Positions 155 to 11,525 of a stretch of 48,704 nt of DNA are shown one piece after another (position 1 is the first letter of the stretch; each line of letters begins with the position of its first letter). Source of the DNA: Desulfovibrionales bacterium. Lineage in GTDB: Bacteria > Desulfobacterota > Desulfovibrionia > Desulfovibrionales > Desulfonatronaceae. The notes under the pieces were generated by a model. It did no database searches and had not been told where the DNA came from. It saw only the letters and a list, made by a program, of their open reading frames with translations. A program made the translations under genes and the position numbers. The stretch is from assembly GCA_007693505.1 (NCBI GenBank), contig REDL01000062.1:1-48704 (forward strand). Direction: 5' to 3'.

Positions 155-217
155 AAAACTTGAAGCATGGCAATGACCAATATCCCGACACAATCCCCTT
201 CAGGAAACCTCTTCCCC

Positions 218-1087
218 ATGAAAACATTTTTGGTTTTTCTGTTTCTGCTCCTCCCAGCGGGCGGGGCCAAGGCCGAGTCTCTTCCTGGCCAGACTGATCA
301 GGTAATTCGCTTTGGCGTATCCACCCGGACTTTTCCGGTGGCCAACCGCAATGACGCCCTGGCGGCACTTAAAGTCTGGGTGGATACGGTCATCAGGGAG
401 CAAAACCTCCGGGAAAGCGCGAAAATCACCTTATATGACTCCGTAGAAGCACTCCGAGCTGCTTATGAACGAGGAGATATTGACGCGGCCACGCTGACCA
501 CCGAGGAAATCATGCTCCTGGGGATACAGCCGGATTATATCTACCTCACCAGTCAGGGTGACGGTATTAACGTCAGGTATGTGCTTCTCGTTCATCGTGA
601 TGGCGGCATTAAGGACCTGGCGGACTTGGCGAGTCGCAAGGTGGTCTTTTTCAATAACCAGTACATGGTTTTGGCTCTGCCCTGGCTGGAGACCCTGTTT
701 ACGGAGGTTGCGGGACAGCGGGTGGATCTCCGAAAGATGAACTTTGAGGAGCTTGATAACCCGTCCAAGGCAATTTTGCAGGTCTTTTTTCATCAGGCCC
801 AGGGTGCCTTGGTCACCATGGAAGCCTTTGAACTGGCTTGCGAACTCAACCCGCAACTGCGCAACGAACTCATGGTCTTCCACGAATCGCCGCCGTTGGT
901 CCCAAAAATGTTCGTGTTCCGACCGGATTGGAAAGGGACCACAAGAGATCAGCTTGAGGAGGCCATGTTGAATCTGCACGCCACCCCCGGAGGCCAACAG
1001 GTCCTGACCGTGTTTCAGAGTTCGCGACTCAGCAAACAGCCTGCCTCGGTCCTGGATCCCACGCGAAAATTTCTCGAGGATTATTGA
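218..1087 (+). CDS. PhnD/SsuA-type periplasmic substrate-binding protein
   Basis: A 289-residue secreted binding protein. The start at 218 is preferred over the in-frame ATG at 167 because AGGAA lies about 11 bases upstream and the protein then begins with a clean signal peptide (MKTFLVFLFLLLPAGGAKA, cleavage after AKA). The mature part has the pattern of the phosphate/phosphite/phosphonate ABC-transporter binding protein family: an RFGVSTRTFP opening strand, GDIDAATLTTEEI in the first lobe, and DLASRKVVFFNNQYM at the hinge. No permease or ATPase gene lies nearby. A rhodanese and two histidine kinases follow, so it may present a ligand to a sensor kinase rather than feed a transporter (inference). 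The ligand is unknown. Its stop codon TGA (1085-1087) is the first base triplet of a dispersed repeat. Confidence 0.8.
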   Translation: MKTFLVFLFLLLPAGGAKAESLPGQTDQVIRFGVSTRTFPVANRNDALAALKVWVDTVIREQNLRESAKITLYDSVEALRAAYERGDIDAATLTTEEIMLLGIQPDYIYLTSQGDGINVRYVLLVHRDGGIKDLADLASRKVVFFNNQYMVLALPWLETLFTEVAGQRVDLRKMNFEELDNPSKAILQVFFHQAQGALVTMEAFELACELNPQLRNELMVFHESPPLVPKMFVFRPDWKGTTRDQLEEAMLNLHATPGGQQVLTVFQSSRLSKQPASVLDPTRKFLEDY

Positions 1088-1535: not shown

Positions 1536-1567
1536 ACCATTTTTATACCTGAACCAGGAGGATAAAC

Positions 1568-2356
1568 ATGATGCGCTTCGTTGTTTTGAGCATTCTTGGC
1601 TGGATGCTGTTTGTCGCCGCACCGGCGGTCATGGCGCAGCCCTACACGGACCTCACCGCCCCGGAAGTGAAAACCATGGTAGAGGAAAAAGGGGCCGTGC
1701 TGATCCATGTACTGAGTCGACTCGAGTTCGACATGCAGCACATCCCCGGCTCAATCAACATTCCGATTACCGAAGTTGCCACCAGTAGCGAGCTGCCTCA
1801 GGCGAAAGACACGCCGATCATCTTCTACTGCATGGGCGTCCGCTGACCCTACAGCGTCCGGGCGGCCGGTCAGGCCGCCGAACTTGGCTATCAGAACGTG
1901 TACTCATTCATCGGAGGCATTCCGGACTGGCGCAGATTCAACTACCCCATGGTCGTCGACAGCGCCGCCCAGGAAGTCGAGTTTCCCAGGTTGTCCCCGG
2001 CAGAGGTACACATCCTGCTCCGAGAGCGCCCCTACTATGTCCTGGATGTTCGCCCCCTGGATTTTGACCGTGATGCGTCATTCATTCCCGAGGCCCGGCT
2101 GTGCCCGCTGGTCTACCTGGAGTCCCGCTATGCCCAGATTCCGAAAGATTCGGAAATCATCATCACGGACTGGGCCATGCGCCAATCGCCTTCGGCCGCG
2201 ATATTCCTTCTGGAGAAGGGCTATACGGTGCGCGGTGTCCTGCGGGGCGGCATGGAGCGCTGGAGGTCGGAACACTTGCCGTTTGAAGAACGCATCCCGG
2301 ACGGCACGATCTGCCCGCTGGGCGGTGTCGATGCATCTGAAGGCAAAAAGGATTAG
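1568..2356 (+). CDS. Secreted tandem-rhodanese protein, probable selenoprotein (Sec at codon 93, TGA 1844-1846)
   Basis: If the in-frame TGA at 1844-1846 is read as selenocysteine, this is a 262-residue protein. AGGAGG (1557-1562) provides the ribosome binding site. A signal peptide (about 1-23, cleavage after VMA) places it in the periplasm. Rhodanese domain 1 spans about 27-122 and has the active loop FYCMGVR-U-PYSVRAA. Relatives, as I recall the family, carry C-x-G-x-x-C here, so TGA falls on the second cysteine; Cys88 is the first. Rhodanese domain 2 spans about 140-235 and has ITDWAMRQS with Asp201 in the cysteine position, so it is probably non-catalytic. The frame stays open for 169 codons after the TGA and family similarity continues across it, which argues against simple decay. 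It lies 8 bases from the kinase at 2365, so the two are probably co-transcribed. The likely role is sulfur or selenium redox chemistry or sensing (inference). The alternative is a nonsense mutation from TGC or TGT. Confidence 0.75.
1844..1880 (+). promoter_or_regulatory. Candidate bacterial SECIS element
   Basis: TGA at 1844-1846 is followed, after 14 bases, by a perfect 7-bp GC stem GGCGGCC (1861-1867) with GGCCGCC (1873-1879) closing a 5-nt loop GGTCA. The apical loop opens with GG and contains GGUC, as does the E. coli fdhF SECIS. There are 21 bases between the UGA and the loop, inside the 16-37 range described for bacterial SECIS elements. It lies wholly inside the coding frame, as bacterial SECIS elements do. 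No bulged U is seen in the stem. Confidence 0.7.
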
Positions 2357-2364
2357 CAAAGCAG

Positions 2365-4437
2365 ATGGCTCAAGCCTCTCAGAAGCCCATCATCCGGACC
2401 TTGACGGCCCTGTTTGGACTGCTCGCCCTGGCCATCATTGCCAATGGGGCCTACCTTACCTTGCAACTGGGCAAGGAGTTGGAAAAAAGACTCGCCGTTG
2501 ATCTGGACAACAAGCTGAATCTGGCAATGACGTTGCACGGCAGCCAGATCGAAGGGCTGCGCATCACCTCCAACATCGCCAGGGAGCAAAACCAGAAATT
2601 CAGTGATTTTCTTGATTTCGAGAATGTCGCCGCGCTGACCTCCATGCTCAGAACCATGGGAACCATCTATGATATTGACATCACGCTCCTGTATGACGAG
2701 CGCGGGGAGATCGTCACGTCGTTTCCCAAGGGACCGGACCTTTCTGATCCGAGCTTGTACCGATCTATTCTGGATGTCTCGCCGGAATGGAACGGCATGA
2801 TATCCATGGACACGGCGCTCCTGCAGGAGCAATACTCGGAAATGGACCTGGACCTCGCCGCTCCAACCGTGCCTGCCTTCCATTCCAGCGTCCTTGTTCT
2901 CAACGATATGGGCAGCATTTCCGGTCGTATTGTGCTGATTCGCCTCATTCCTGGAAATGAAAGCCTGATCCAGGCCATATCCGGGTTGATCAATGCGGAG
3001 GTTGTTTACCAGGACGCAATGGGGCGATCTGTCCTGAGCAGCTTCGGTGGGACGGACATGCAGGCTTTGGCCGGAGGGCCGATACAGGTCCAAGAGCGTC
3101 TCTACCATGTGACCCAGGAGACCTTGCTGGACGACAAGGGCGAGGTGGTCGGAAGCCTCTTGGCCGCACTTGAAGAAGGGCCTTACAGGGAGCACCGCAA
3201 GAAAATCCTTTTAGGCAGCCTGGGTTTACTGGTTCTTGCGGCGATATTTTTCGGGGGGGTCATCTATCTCTTGTCGAGCCGGGTCATCGGGAAAATTCAT
3301 TTGCTGAGCCGGGCACTGCGCAGGGTTACCCTGGAAACCACCGACTTCGGCACCCGGATTCCCGCTCCAGAAACCACGGGAGGCCGGGCCCATGACGAAG
3401 TGACGACCATGATCATGGACTTCAACCAGATGATGGTCAGACTCGAAGACACGTACCAGCAGATGATCCTGGCCAGGGAGGAAGTCGAGTCCATGAACCG
3501 CGTGCTGGAATCGCGCGTTCGTGAACGGACCCGGGAACTCCAGGACCAGGTCAAGGTCAAGGAGCAGGCCCTGGCCGATCTGACCGCGGCCCAGGATACG
3601 CTCCTGGAAATGTCACGGGCCGCGGGCATGGCCGAGGTGGCCACCGGGGTGTTGCACAACGTGGGCAATGTCCTCAACAGCGTGAACGTTTCCTGTACCC
3701 TGCTCCAGGACCAGCTCCGCCAGTCCCGGGTGGGCAACGTGGCCAGGGTGGCCGAGATGCTGGCCCGGCCCGAGGGCGGCCTGGCCCGCTTCCTGACCGC
3801 GGACCCCCGGGGACAAAAAATCCCGGCCTACCTGGCCACTCTGGCCAGTGCCCTGGAAGACGAGCAGACGGAAATGTCCCGGGAGGCCGAGGCCCTGCGA
3901 AGCCGGATCGAGCACATCAAGGAAATCGTCTCCATGCAGCAGACTTACGGCCGGATATCTGGAGTCCACGAAGTCCTGCACCCGGAGCAATTGCTGGAAG
4001 ACGCCCTGAAGCTCAACGCCGAGGTCCTGGCCCGACAGGAAATTACGGTCCGCCGGGAGTACGAACCCGTACCCCGAATCAGCGTGGACAAGCACAAGGT
4101 GCTGCAAATCCTGCTCAACCTGATAGCCAATGCCCGGAACGCCTGCCTGGAAGGAAAAAAGGCCGAGAAAACGATTGTCCTGGGCCTGGACCACCCAGCC
4201 CCGGACAAGGTGCGGCTGAGGGTGACGGATAACGGCATGGGAATTGCCCCGGAGAATCTCACCAGCATTTTTCAGCACGGCTTCACCACCCGCAAGGACG
4301 GCCACGGCTTCGGCCTGCACAGCGGGGCCCTGGCCGCCAGGGAACTCGGCGGCAGCCTGGCCGTGCACAGCGACGGCCCGGGCCTTGGCGCAACCTTCAG
4401 CCTGGAACTGCCCTGCACTACAGGAGAAAAGACATGA
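2365..4437 (+). CDS. Membrane sensor histidine kinase (periplasmic sensor, HAMP, HATPase)
   Basis: A 690-residue kinase. A transmembrane segment at about 10-30 leads to a periplasmic region of roughly 250 residues. A second membrane segment starts near 279 ([19 protein letters not shown]), followed by HAMP (about 300-360) and a coiled coil. The phosphoacceptor box [13 protein letters not shown] has His431. The ATP-binding domain shows an N box [10 protein letters not shown], a G1 box DNGMGI, and GHGFGLHSG. It starts 8 bases after the rhodanese stop and overlaps the next gene by 4 bases (ATGA), so 1568-6542 reads as one operon. The periplasmic part could sense the rhodanese, the PhnD-like protein or a sulfur species directly (inference). 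The ligand is unknown. Confidence 0.88.
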
Positions 4438-6542
4438 CTTCTTCAGCCGACAGCGGAGGCTATCGGATTCTGATCATCGACGACAATGTCGCGATTCACG
4501 AGGACTTTCGCAAGATTCTCGAGCGGAGCAGGCCTTCCGAAGACATGCTGCGGGAGATGGAATCCGAGTTGTTCGGCCAGGAGGATACGGCCGTGGCATC
4601 CGCCGACTTTGTCATCGACTCCGCTGCCCAGGGCAAGGAAGGGTTGGAAATGGTCCGCCGGGCCAAGAACGAGAACCGGCCCTACGCCCTGGCCTTCGTG
4701 GACGGTCGGATGCCCCCGGGCTGGGACGGAATCGAAACCATCGCCCGGCTCTGGGAGGTCAGCCCGGAACTGCAGGTGGTCTTCTGCACGGCCTATGCGG
4801 ACTATGCCTGGCGAGACATCCAGGGCGTCCTGGGGAGCAGCGACAACCTGCTGATCCTAAAAAAACCCTTTGACAACGCGGAAGTGCACCAACTGGCCCA
4901 TGCCCTGACCCGGAAGTGGGACCTGAACCGAGAGGTTCAGGCCAAAATCAGCGCGTTGCGGGAAAGCCAGGAAAAAGCCCGCACGGCCCAAGTGGCGGCG
5001 GAAGCCGCCAGCAAAGCCAAGAGCGAATTCCTGGCCAATATGAGCCATGAAATCCGCACCCCCATGAACGGTGTGCTGGGCATGCTCGGATTGCTCCTGG
5101 ACACCGAGATGAACACCGAACAACGGCAGTTCGCCCAAACCGCGCTTACCAGCGCCCAGGGCCTGCTCGGCCTGCTCAACGACATCCTGGATTTTTCCAA
5201 GATCGAGGCCGGAAAACTGTCACTGGAAATGCTGGATTTCGCCCTGCGAACCATGCTGGACGGCCTGACCACCGTTCTGGCCCCAATCGCCCAACAAAAA
5301 GGTCTAAACCTCGCCACCCACGTCGCCCCTGAGGTCCCACCTCTGCTTACTGGCGACCCGGGTCGGCTACGCCAGATTTTGACCAATCTGGTGGGCAACG
5401 CCATCAAGTTCACGGAAAAGGGTGAAGTGGTGGTAATGGTTTCTTTGGTTCACGGTTCATCGGTTGGAGATGCAGTGGTTCACGGTTCACGGTTCAACGG
5501 TTCAACTGTTGGCGGGAGGGCAGTTGATGATTCCGTAGGGGCGAACAATCTTTCGCCCCACAGTGACGCGCCCAATGCACAATCTCCCGACGAGACCACC
5601 TCCCCACCCGTGAACCGTGAACCGTTGAACCCGGAACCCCGGACAGTGAAGCTGCGCTTCTCTGTCCGGGACACCGGCATCGGCATCCCCGAGAACAAGA
5701 TCGGCCTGCTGTTCGAAAAATTCACCCAGGCGGACGCTTCCTTGTCGCGCCGATATGGCGGCACGGGGCTGGGGCTGGCCATCAGTCGGCAACTTGCCGA
5801 ACTGATGGACGGCACGATGGGCGTTGTCAGCAGTGAGGACGAGGGATCCGAGTTCTGGTTCACGGCGCGCTTCACCCTACATCCAAGGACGACGCAGACT
5901 GCTCCGCAACCTGTTTTCGTGGCCGACGCATCGCGTTCCATCCACCCGTCTCCACCTTCCCCCGCCCCTGCCATCGCGCCTACCATCGCAATCACTCGAC
6001 CATCCCAGCCCATCGGCCGGTTCGCCGACCGCAATGCCCGCGTCCTGCTGGTCGAGGACAATATCGTGAACCAAAAGGTGGCCATGAGCATTTTGAGAAA
6101 GCTGGGCCTTGCGGCGGACACCGCGATGAACGGTATTGAGGCCCTCCGGGCAGTCGAAAAACAGTCCTACGACCTGGTGCTGATGGATGTGATGATGCCG
6201 GTGATGGATGGGGTGGAGGCGACGAAAAGGATCAGGAGTCAGGAGTCAGGAGTCAGAAGCCAGGAGTCAGAGGAAGGTGACAGAACATCAGTGGAGGGAC
6301 ATCAAACTTCTGACCCTCAGGTTTCAGGTTTCAGCCCTCAGCCCTCTCAACATTCCAGCATCCCAGCATCCCAGCATTCCAGTATTCCGATCATCGCCAT
6401 GACCGCCAACGCCATGCAGGGAGACCGGGAAAAATGTCTGGAAGCAGGCATGAATGACTATCTGGCAAAACCTATTTCACCGACGGCCCTGGCGGACATG
6501 TTGGAGAAATGGCTGCCTGCCGTAGATCCTCGAGGCCATTGA
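4434..6542 (+). CDS. Hybrid histidine kinase (REC-HisKA-HATPase-REC) with in-frame repeat insertions
   Basis: A soluble 702-residue hybrid kinase. The N-terminal receiver (about 10-165) has acidic residues IIDDN and phosphoacceptor Asp90 (FVDGRMPP). HisKA contains NMSHEIRTP with His205. The ATPase domain includes NLVGNAIKF and DTGIGIP. The C-terminal receiver has Asp585 (VLMDVMMP). Two stretches look foreign to the fold. Residues about 339-402, between ATPase strands, and about 600-652, in the receiver loop before [11 protein letters not shown], are built from intergenic-type DNA repeats kept in frame. The protein ends at [13 protein letters not shown], and just beyond it a +1-shifted Hpt fragment is visible, so the C-terminus is probably truncated by a frameshift. 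It overlaps the upstream kinase by 4 bases and is its probable phosphorelay partner. Confidence 0.85.
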
Positions 6543-7615: not shown

Positions 7616-8254
7616 ATGCTTGAGATTGAAGTCGGCGGAAAGCTCATGATGGAGCTGACCGGCATACCGGACAAGCTCCATTCATTTTTCGTGGGGTATG
7701 TCAAAAAACGCGTTGTGATCACCATGATCCCCTTCGTACCGGATGTGAACCGTCCCACACTCCTGGAAAACCTGTACAAGGGAAATTCGGTCACTGCCCG
7801 CTTCATCAGGCAGGGAACCGTTCTCGGCTTCAGCACCACCGTGGCTCACGTCGCGTTCACGCCGATTCCTCTCTTGTTTCTGGAATATCCAAATACCATC
7901 GAGAGCTATAACCTGCGCAAGGACAACCGTGTGGTCTGCCTTTTTCCAATCACAGTAGTCCTCAATGGCGGGGAACAGTTTGGTGGGTTGTCGGATATCA
8001 GCAAGGCCGGCTGCGGTATCGTCATTCCAATCAAGGACGACCAGCCGGGGGATTTTACAATTGACGATGTCATCCATTTTCGATGCCCCCTGCTTTTTGG
8101 CGATCCGCAAGCGGAGGTTCCAGGCAAGATCAAACGGGTGGACAAGAATGGAACAAAGGTGGAGCTGGGAGTGAAATTCAATGATATCGGGGATGATCTG
8201 GTTCGGAGGATCAGCGAGTATATTGAACAGACTCGATATTTCATGGACGCGTGA
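7616..8254 (+). CDS. PilZ-domain c-di-GMP-binding protein (YcgR-like)
   Basis: A 212-residue protein. The N-terminal half (about 1-95) has the layout of the YcgR-type flagellar-brake N domain. The C-terminal PilZ domain carries both c-di-GMP-binding motifs: R-x-x-x-R as RKDNR at 101-105, and D-x-S-x-x-G as DISKAG at 127-132. The gene follows the TPR gene by 16 bases and precedes an EAL-HDOD gene, so a c-di-GMP module is likely. In this family the protein acts on the flagellar motor or another surface system when c-di-GMP rises. The target here is not shown by the sequence. Confidence 0.88.
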   Translation: MLEIEVGGKLMMELTGIPDKLHSFFVGYVKKRVVITMIPFVPDVNRPTLLENLYKGNSVTARFIRQGTVLGFSTTVAHVAFTPIPLLFLEYPNTIESYNLRKDNRVVCLFPITVVLNGGEQFGGLSDISKAGCGIVIPIKDDQPGDFTIDDVIHFRCPLLFGDPQAEVPGKIKRVDKNGTKVELGVKFNDIGDDLVRRISEYIEQTRYFMDA

Positions 8255-8409
8255 TGGAAATCGCGGCTGAATGTCAGCTCAAGTTGGTCGCACAGTCTGA
8301 ATCTCTATTGAGCATAATGACATATGTCCTGCATTGATCAGTGACGTGGGCAACAGCCAGACCTCAGTGCACCGCGAGCGCGAGGAAGCATTACAAAAGG
8401 GAATTGAGT

Positions 8410-9696
8410 GTGAAGGAGATGCAGACCCAAGCGGCATCAATGGAGGAAGATCGGGACAAGTCCGGATGGGTTGAACCCATTTACGTGGCCCGTCAACCGA
8501 TTTTTGATCAGAATATGAGTATCTGGGGTTATGAGCTGCTCTTCCGGCACAGCTCGCAATGCACGACGGCCCGGATCGACGACGCCGACGAGGCGACTTC
8601 CAAGGTGATCGTGGATGGGTTTGGGCTGGTTGCAGATCTTTTGGCACCGTCCCAGAAGGTTCTGATCAACTATCCAGGGCCTATGCTCCTTCAAGGCGCC
8701 CCTCGGGCTTTACCGTCCGAGGTGGCCATTGTGGAGATTCTGGAAACAGTCCAGCCCAACCCGGACATTGTCAGCGCCTGCGCCCAGCTCAAGGCCGATG
8801 GCTATATCCTGGCCCTGGACGACTTCGTCGGCCAGCCGGGGTTCGAGGCCCTGCTGGAACTGGCCGACATGGTCAAGGTGGATGTGCTCAACCTGGAAGA
8901 CTCTCAGCTCAAAGCCATTGTCAGCGATCTGCACCGGATTGGCACGCGACGCCTGCTGGCGGAGAAGGTCGAGGATTTGGCCATGTTCGATCAGTGCCGG
9001 GAGCTGGGCTTCGAACTGTTCCAGGGCTACTTCTTCAGCCGTCCGGAACTGGTCAGCGGTAAAAAGCTCTCGGCCAACCAGATTTCAAAGCTGCAACTGC
9101 TCAAGGAACTGAGTTCCCCGGATCTGGAGCTGCGACAAATATCGGGCATTGTTCAACACGACGTGTCCCTGAGCTACCGTCTGCTGCGCTACATCAATTC
9201 ACCCGGGCTTGGCCTGCCGAACAGGATCACATCCATCAATCAAGCCGTGAACCTCCTGGGGCTCCGCAAGGTCAGCGCTTGGCTGCGGGTGCTGATCCTG
9301 GCCGAGATGAAATCCACGCCCCAGTCCGGAGAGCTGCTTTTTCTTTCCGTGCAACGGGCCAAATTCTTGGAGACGATGAGCAGTGTCGCCAAATCTGACG
9401 GGCTTTCCGGCGAAGGCATGTTCCTGCTCGGTTTGTTTTCCTTCCTGGATGCCATCCTGGGCCAACCCATGGAGGATATACTAAAAAAGCTGTCCCTGGA
9501 GCCTCGCCTGGAAGCGGCCTTGCTGGGGCATGACGCAGACCTTGGCGTTTGGCTGGACTTGGCCGCGGCCTGTGAGCGCGGCAACTGGGACAAGACCGAA
9601 GCATTGCTGACCACCTTGAACCTCACGTCCGATCACACGGCCAAGAGCCTGAACGAAGCCGCCCAATGGGCCAAGCAGTTCCTGGCTGAAACCTGA
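8410..9696 (+). CDS. EAL-HDOD signalling protein (YuxH family)
   Basis: About 428 residues. The EAL domain comes first (PIYVARQPIFDQN, GYELLFRH). It retains many catalytic-type residues: ILETVQP, LALDDFVG, VKVDVLN, LAEKVED and FQGYFFS. However, the signature EAL triplet reads ELL, so phosphodiesterase activity is doubtful. An HDOD domain follows (VSLSYRLLRYINSPGLGL, INQAVNLLGLRKVSAWL). HDOD proteins of this type regulate motility or signalling without hydrolysing nucleotides. GTG at 8410 is chosen because AAGGGAA lies 8 bases upstream. GTG 8341, ATG 8419 and ATG 8440 are alternatives in the same frame. It probably reads or modulates the same c-di-GMP pool as its PilZ neighbour. Confidence 0.85.
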   Translation: MKEMQTQAASMEEDRDKSGWVEPIYVARQPIFDQNMSIWGYELLFRHSSQCTTARIDDADEATSKVIVDGFGLVADLLAPSQKVLINYPGPMLLQGAPRALPSEVAIVEILETVQPNPDIVSACAQLKADGYILALDDFVGQPGFEALLELADMVKVDVLNLEDSQLKAIVSDLHRIGTRRLLAEKVEDLAMFDQCRELGFELFQGYFFSRPELVSGKKLSANQISKLQLLKELSSPDLELRQISGIVQHDVSLSYRLLRYINSPGLGLPNRITSINQAVNLLGLRKVSAWLRVLILAEMKSTPQSGELLFLSVQRAKFLETMSSVAKSDGLSGEGMFLLGLFSFLDAILGQPMEDILKKLSLEPRLEAALLGHDADLGVWLDLAAACERGNWDKTEALLTTLNLTSDHTAKSLNEAAQWAKQFLAET

Positions 9697-11372: not shown

Positions 11373-11525
11373 GTAACTATATCAGCACATAATGTGCATG
11401 ATCATTCTCCAGCACTGGATTCCGGCTTTCGCCGGAATGACGTATCTGGGCAGGCTTTTCCCACGCTAGTCATACCGGCGAAGGCCGGTATCCAGGTCTT
11501 TTTTCTGGCTATGCTGAGTAGTTAC
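11373..11525. repeat. MITE-like element, copy 2 (inverted relative to 1303-1454)
   Basis: The ends are GTAACTATATCAGCA (11373-11387) and TGCTGAGTAGTTAC (11512-11525). The 153-base body matches the reverse complement of 1303-1454 closely, including ATGATCATTCTCC, two CCGG-type palindromes and the spacer between them. Together with 11074-11255 it accounts for most of the 10888-11600 gap between permease and repressor. I see no gene in that gap. Confidence 0.75.

Follow-up and report, generated by a model that had tools for sequence, protein, structure and literature searches.

A predicted selenocysteine rhodanese and its conserved gene pairing with a double Cache sensor kinase

Selenoproteins are mostly known as enzymes. 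In Vibrio quorum sensing, the sensor kinase LuxQ reads LuxP, a periplasmic binding protein that binds AI-2 and whose gene lies beside that of the kinase. In streptomycetes, the HbpS-SenS-SenR system comprises a secreted protein that modulates a sensor kinase by its redox state (PMC4991794). Rhodaneses containing selenocysteine (Sec) have been reviewed as five forms, numbered 1 to 5, with the motifs UxxS, UxxG, CxU, UxxG, and UxxxxU, respectively (PMC13188914), and rhodanese or sulfurtransferase selenoproteins are also mentioned in PMC9312934, PMC1088965, PMC2398784, PMC5029168, and PMC8318568. The last of these names a histidine kinase as one of its putative new selenoproteins, a different claim that places Sec inside the kinase itself. 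A word search of the review returns 0 matches for a CxxxxU motif and 0 occurrences of "histidine kinase", and its rhodanese passages mention no kinase partner. The available parts of PMC1794560 and of the deep-Sep paper (PMC12013277) contain nothing on the pairing of a rhodanese selenoprotein with a kinase. Among the papers found on rhodaneses or selenoproteins together with histidine kinases, none describes such a system, as judged by titles and the opening lines of abstracts, an earlier description being possible.

The rhodanese gene and its in-frame TGA

The window, which designates the whole stretch of 48,704 nucleotides analyzed here (contig REDL01000062.1 of a Desulfovibrionales bacterium), encodes a predicted selenocysteine rhodanese followed by a histidine kinase (Table 1). 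The frame opened by the ATG at 1568 runs through a TGA, its codon 93, and stays open for 169 further codons up to a TAG (2354-2356). Pfam analysis reports two rhodanese stretches in this ORF (PF00581; 86.1 bits for a cut-off of 22.2). The first-pass annotation had described a tandem rhodanese with an in-frame TGA at the place of the second active-loop cysteine (C-x-G-x-x-U) and rhodanese similarity continuing over the 169 codons; each of these elements is borne out, the active loop reading C88-M-G-V-R-U93 in the translation.

Table 1. Features of the rhodanese-kinase locus and its surroundings (window coordinates)
Feature	Position	Strand	Basis
PhnD-like periplasmic binding protein gene, upstream of the rhodanese	167..1087	+	Pfam
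Shine-Dalgarno-like AGGAGG, six bases 5' of the ATG	1556..1561	+	read directly
Predicted selenocysteine rhodanese, 262 aa, Sec at codon 93	1568..2356	+	translation, Pfam, relatives
Signal-peptide-like N-terminus, residues 1-23	1568..1636	+	judged by eye
Cys88 codon, catalytic-position cysteine of domain 1	1829..1831	+	relatives
TGA, codon 93, predicted to be read as selenocysteine	1844..1846	+	TGA in 30/30 clade copies, Cys in more distant relatives
Predicted SECIS hairpin, stem 1861-1867 with 1873-1879, loop 1868-1872	1861..1879	+	synonymous-codon control, covariation
Histidine kinase, partner gene, beginning 8 bases after the rhodanese stop	2365..4437	+	HATPase_c, weak HAMP; homologous sensor in 22/22 loci
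Predicted periplasmic LuxQ-like double Cache sensor, ~residues 30-282	2452..3210	+	AlphaFold2 model, LuxQ 2hje match
Hybrid kinase with receivers, probable next phosphorelay step	4434..6542	+	HisKA, HATPase_c, three Response_reg stretches (Pfam); function inferred
PilZ/YcgR-like protein, possible cyclic-di-GMP output, putative member	7616..8254	+	Pfam
HDOD protein with EAL match, possible output, putative member	8341..9696	+	Pfam
ArsP-type permease gene, inside the repeat-bracketed segment	9724..10929	-	Pfam

Residue 88 is a Cys in all 22 rows of the relatives' alignment and in all 30 distinct clade copies described below, the latter read together with their TGA status by a script that selected for Cys at this position, since it only sought a Cys five residues before TGA, TGC, or TGT, other residues there being invisible to it. 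In the second rhodanese domain, the place of the catalytic Cys is occupied by Asp201 (Asp in 30/30 clade copies), and this domain therefore probably plays a structural or binding role. Cys179 was considered as a third redox residue and dropped, being a Cys in 24 of the 30 copies only. The structure model of the rhodanese is of moderate quality (pLDDT 70.3, pTM 0.55), and its domain 1 matches known rhodaneses with Z values of up to 15.2. The signal-like N-terminus, as judged by eye, suggests that the product may be secreted or periplasmic.

Four relatives from named records (Geobacteraceae, Desulfobulbus, and two Desulfobacteraceae MAGs; 51-73% identity over the best segment) all possess a TGA at the place of codon 93, within FYCMGxRUPYS. 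A scan of the phylum reports a rhodanese match at E <= 1e-20 in 14 of 395 genomes. A profile search of 257 genomes of one class reports 26 matches of at least 296 bits, each containing one TGA, and one further partial match (G667:C385:2-412, query 119-254) that begins past codon 93. These 26 matches, together with the window, L060, L062, and L063, make up the 30 distinct copies, every one with TGA at codon 93; L118, which is the very record of L061, was left unused, and this copy, listed as L061 or L082, enters the count a single time. The 30 copies group as one clade (support 0.90) in a tree of 54 sequences rooted at the midpoint, from which loci L031-L048 and L135 are absent. Over the 22 rows of the relatives' alignment, codon 93 encodes Sec in 16 (L071 with a one-residue shift), Cys in 5, and Gly in 1, and the anticipated alternation of Cys and Sec thus holds with one exception; the tree sisters L109 and L110 carry Sec and Cys, respectively. 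The protein sequence of the relatives is conserved beyond codon 93.

Regarding the Sec machinery, the genome of the window (3.94 Mb in 136 contigs, 98.5% complete) contains all of selABCD, on which the selenoprotein reading hinges: selA (607.5 bits), selB (383.7), selD (328.6), and tRNA-Sec (82.4), each above its cut-off, ARAGORN concurring on the tRNA-Sec. Among the relatives' genomes, selB exceeds its cut-off in 5 of the 6 of a first set, the sixth, that of L061, having only partial matches at contig edges. A second set comprises 18 genomes, 16 of them with the clade, of which 11 have selB above cut-off and G540 has a partial match; a search at E <= 1e-60 returned no selB in the clade genomes G484, G667, G679, and G541, each less than 90% complete, and G484 probably represents the L061 genome a second time. 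The two genomes of this set outside the 16, G660 and G661, possess selB. In the window's genome, the reading frame of selD itself includes one TGA close to its start (NAAGUASK; L026, contig C37), and the gene probably encodes a Sec-containing SelD.

Outside the clade, a Sec lies five residues past the catalytic-position Cys in L048, L051, L066, L067, L068, L074, L075, L076, and L109; the C-x4-Sec geometry is therefore found in several rhodanese subfamilies and extends more widely than the kinase-linked clade. The window's genome encodes a second C-x4-Sec rhodanese on contig C26 (L135, ~4736-5899, plus strand), with an in-frame TGA in VVYCRDFRULLSEIAA. It adjoins a 455-residue protein with three rhodanese matches, near the counterparts of which a match with one TGA is seen in several genomes of the same genus.

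The predicted SECIS hairpin consists of the stem GGCGGCC, the loop GGTCA, and the stem GGCCGCC, its first base lying 14 bases past the TGA, so that the 7-bp stem, the loop, and the distance from the TGA proposed initially are borne out. Taken alone, the window hairpin is of ordinary stability (z -1.04), 25 of 200 shuffles giving an equal or better fold; this fold, not being significant, was not used as evidence, and the case for a SECIS is the comparison with relatives. Rfam analysis at gathering scores returns no match in the window. The 30 clade sequences align gap-free after the TGA, and the six inner pairs are all formed in 27 of them, as compared with 2.7 on average and never more than 8 over 500 synonymous-codon shuffles; the pairing cells of this alignment amount to 91.9%, and one loop position is G in 30/30 copies. 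The covariation score is 0.336 versus 0.178 in shuffles (0/500 reach 0.336) and no higher than 0.126 when the partners are slid. In columns 21-33 of the hairpin alignment, the pair is CG in 16 copies, UA in 11, UG in 2, and GC in 1. Pairs changed on both sides show no excess (3 versus 2.2 in shuffles, 185/500). The six inner pairs are present in 5 of eight Sec relatives outside the clade (shuffle mean 0.8, maximum 5) and in 4 of 43 Cys relatives (mean 1.5, maximum 6). The 43 Cys relatives nevertheless exceed their shuffles in paired cells (66% versus 53%), in a set with many near-identical members, 20 of which have one common loop sequence.

If we assume instead that the TGA truly ends translation or is an error, what follows it would be a pseudogene or an independently started fragment, a view with which the ordinary stability of the isolated window hairpin is in line. 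However, this explanation has to contend with the invariant TGA of the clade, the protein conserved past codon 93, the covarying hairpin, and the full Sec machinery. A read error hiding TGC or TGT at 1844 is excluded, as genomes of independent records show TGA at codon 93, and the same relatives, together with the 30/30 clade copies, rule out a pseudogene. A true stop is thus extremely improbable, and, because of the Sec machinery, the TGA conservation, and the SECIS comparison, the product of ORF 1568-2356 is almost certainly a selenoprotein.

Conserved pairing of the rhodanese clade with a sensor kinase

The position beside a sensor kinase, pointed out by the first-pass annotation, is a conserved feature of the clade. 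At the 22 distinct clade loci whose surroundings were read (window, L060-L063, L117, and L119-L134), a homologous sensor kinase lies downstream of the rhodanese in 22/22. The window's sensor retrieves the downstream homologue by tblastn in 20 of these loci; the sensors of L130 and L132 were found by reading, and a sensor profile built without them detects both (in G679 and G664). The two genes share one strand, 8 bases apart in the window, and follow one another on the same strand at the other loci. Tandem rhodanese genes occur in 9 of the 22 loci, the pair of L127 being cut by the contig end. In L117 and L119-L125, two differing Sec rhodaneses, with loops C-M-G and C-L-S, are located upstream of one kinase, and both copies have Sec in the eight pairs other than that of L127.

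In the class of 257 genomes, a rhodanese match at E <= 1e-35 is reported for 50, i.e. 18 with the Sec clade (best match of at least 296 bits) and 32 with other members only (at most 192 bits). The sensor profile, derived from 19 linked kinases, matches 19 of the 257 genomes once each, namely the 18 Sec-clade genomes and G660. The sensor adjoins the clade rhodanese in 18/18 Sec-clade genomes and is found, in this profile scan of one class, in 0 of the 32 genomes with only non-clade relatives. As the profile stems from linked kinases, the detection of these is built in, and unlinked sensors that have diverged could escape it. The G660 kinase (L154, L156; contig 98) has no rhodanese within 1.5 kb upstream, in a genome that possesses selB. 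Within the class to which the window belongs, the search detects the sensor in 1 of 348 genomes, that of the window. For both genes, the closest relative is a Geobacteraceae MAG (73% identity for the rhodanese, 59% for the kinase), which suggests a transfer of the pair between lineages. Ten scanned kinases retain the sensor but differ in their cytoplasmic parts (kinase only, receivers, Hpt, PAS), and the selected link would therefore be that of the rhodanese with the sensor. The kinase alignment (A5) leaves out L127, L130, and L132 and contains a re-cut L121.

The AlphaFold2 model of the first 322 kinase residues, computed with five sequences, has a pLDDT of 82.4 and a pTM of 0.71. Its top structure by Z is LuxQ (2hje; Z 16.4, rmsd 3.1, 195 residues, 12% identity), ahead of DctB (14.6) and KinD (14.1) by only ~2 Z units. 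Foldseek E-values place a WalK-YycH integrative model (TM-scores 0.21 and 0.12) ahead of the LuxQ entries, which take ranks 2-5, 7, and 8. The computation thus shows the modelled sensor to be a LuxQ-like double Cache domain, a shared fold that shows no function. Two motifs are conserved in the sensor, EQ..K...-LD.D and HD.G..YG. The window's sensor has zero Cys in residues 30-300, and Cys positions are scattered among 20 compared kinases. A Cys-free sensor cannot take up a disulfide from the rhodanese, so that the chemistry must sit in the partner or in a ligand; a thiol relay from rhodanese to kinase sensor is accordingly ruled out for the window.

Among the neighbours of other clade loci, domains of cyclic-di-GMP signalling are found in L060 (receiver-GGDEF-EAL), L132 and L134 (receiver-GGDEF), and upstream in L126 (GGDEF-receiver-HD), and stand-alone receivers upstream in L117, L124, and L126. 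Other neighbours are unrelated to signalling, such as a glycosyltransferase (L128) and Band_7 proteins (L060). Pfam analysis of 20 selected neighbour proteins returned no DNA-binding regulator. The PhnD-like gene of the window was set aside as a part of the module, since none of the other 21 loci, which include short contigs, contains a match to it. A 150-bp repeat with internal palindromes and TGAGTAGTTAC ends is present at 1306-1454 and 11373-11523, in opposite orientation and 89% identical. It brackets a stretch of ~10 kb with the rhodanese, kinase, PilZ, HDOD, and ArsP genes, which might be a mobile segment. In tetranucleotide composition, the window correlates at 0.985, and its first 10 kb at 0.956, with 28 further stretches of its genome, versus 0.722 for L060, and wrong binning of the contig is therefore unlikely.

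A possible sensory role for the gene pair

The rhodanese clade and the kinase very probably form a functional pair in some sense. As to how, we lean slightly, by analogy, towards the selenoprotein being a periplasmic co-sensor of the adjacent kinase in the manner of LuxP with LuxQ. The linkage at 22/22 loci, its presence in 18/18 versus 0/32 genomes, the first place of LuxQ by Z, and the Cys-free sensor speak for such a role, while the narrow lead of LuxQ over the small-molecule binders DctB and KinD, the orphan kinase of G660, and the fact that LuxP is not a rhodanese speak against it. Cys88 would accept sulfane sulfur (polysulfide, thiosulfate, or persulfide) or become oxidised, and Sec93 in the same loop would resolve it as a selenenylsulfide or relay the persulfide, a Cys88-Sec93 selenenylsulfide or transfer centre being plausible from the loop sequence. 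In bovine rhodanese, Thr252 lies five residues after Cys247 in the persulfide-holding loop, and a selenol at the equivalent place could touch the persulfide. The changed rhodanese would be read by the kinase through non-covalent contact, as LuxP is by LuxQ, and a phosphorelay would carry the signal onwards, its probable end points in several loci being cyclic-di-GMP enzymes. We consider it as likely as not that the genes make up a two-component system with a selenoprotein as its periplasmic input, in which a LuxQ-like kinase would be switched by one or two Sec rhodaneses responding to sulfane sulfur or to the redox state.

The same observations could also be accounted for by a periplasmic selenoenzyme (a sulfurtransferase, or a polysulfide or peroxide reductase) producing or consuming a small molecule, which the Cache domain would sense with no contact between the proteins. 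Sec usually serves catalysis, the other double Cache sensors of the structure list (DctB, KinD, and PctA) bind small molecules, and a sensor devoid of Cys agrees equally with this explanation and with direct contact. However, an enzyme acting through its product needs neither the strict linkage of one clade to one sensor nor the tandem copies seen in 9/22 loci, and we hold it to be rather unlikely, although less so than a kinase that senses another cue and merely controls the expression of an adjacent protective rhodanese. The latter is improbable: regulators and their targets are often neighbours, but the genes follow each other on one strand, 8 bases apart in the window, the outputs examined are cyclic-di-GMP or receiver proteins, and the selected neighbours comprise no DNA-binding regulator.

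If the selenoprotein acts as a co-sensor, the strict and repeated pairing of the clade with its sensor would make selenocysteine the entry point of a signalling pathway, and the gene pair suggests a joint sensing of sulfur or redox chemistry outside the cell. When the TGA is taken as a stop, the gene is split into fragments, and such inputs are thus missed.

Comparison with known rhodaneses and sensor systems

The rhodaneses described in the review (PMC13188914) and the window's protein have in common a Sec in the rhodanese active loop. The U-P-Y-S segment of the latter agrees with the UxxS motif of form 1 (reference WP_010941598.1), and on this motif the protein may belong to that form. The form 3 model NF041203 (rhodanese_LYCAU) scores 66.8 bits, below its cut-off of 115, and the form 5 model NF045694 (TsoB) 49.8 bits, below its cut-off of 805. 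The UxxxxU motif of TsoB and the window's loop have an equal five-residue spacing. The same loop geometry is seen, with Cys replacing Sec, in C-x4-C rhodaneses such as BH2092 (3o3w/3nhv) and in relatives with FYCKGPKC. Unlike the loci of the Sec clade, the 12 kb at L136, where a Cys relative is encoded, contain no match to the sensor.

HbpS, the secreted partner of SenS, is not a rhodanese, and the opening of the abstract of PMC4991794 does not mention Sec. The double Cache sensor of the window resembles that of LuxQ (Z 16.4) at an identity of only 12%, and its partner is a predicted Sec rhodanese rather than an AI-2 binding protein of the LuxP type, so that the likeness to LuxP-LuxQ is of the "works like" kind only. 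Both pairs share the same arrangement, in which the gene of the partner lies beside that of the kinase.
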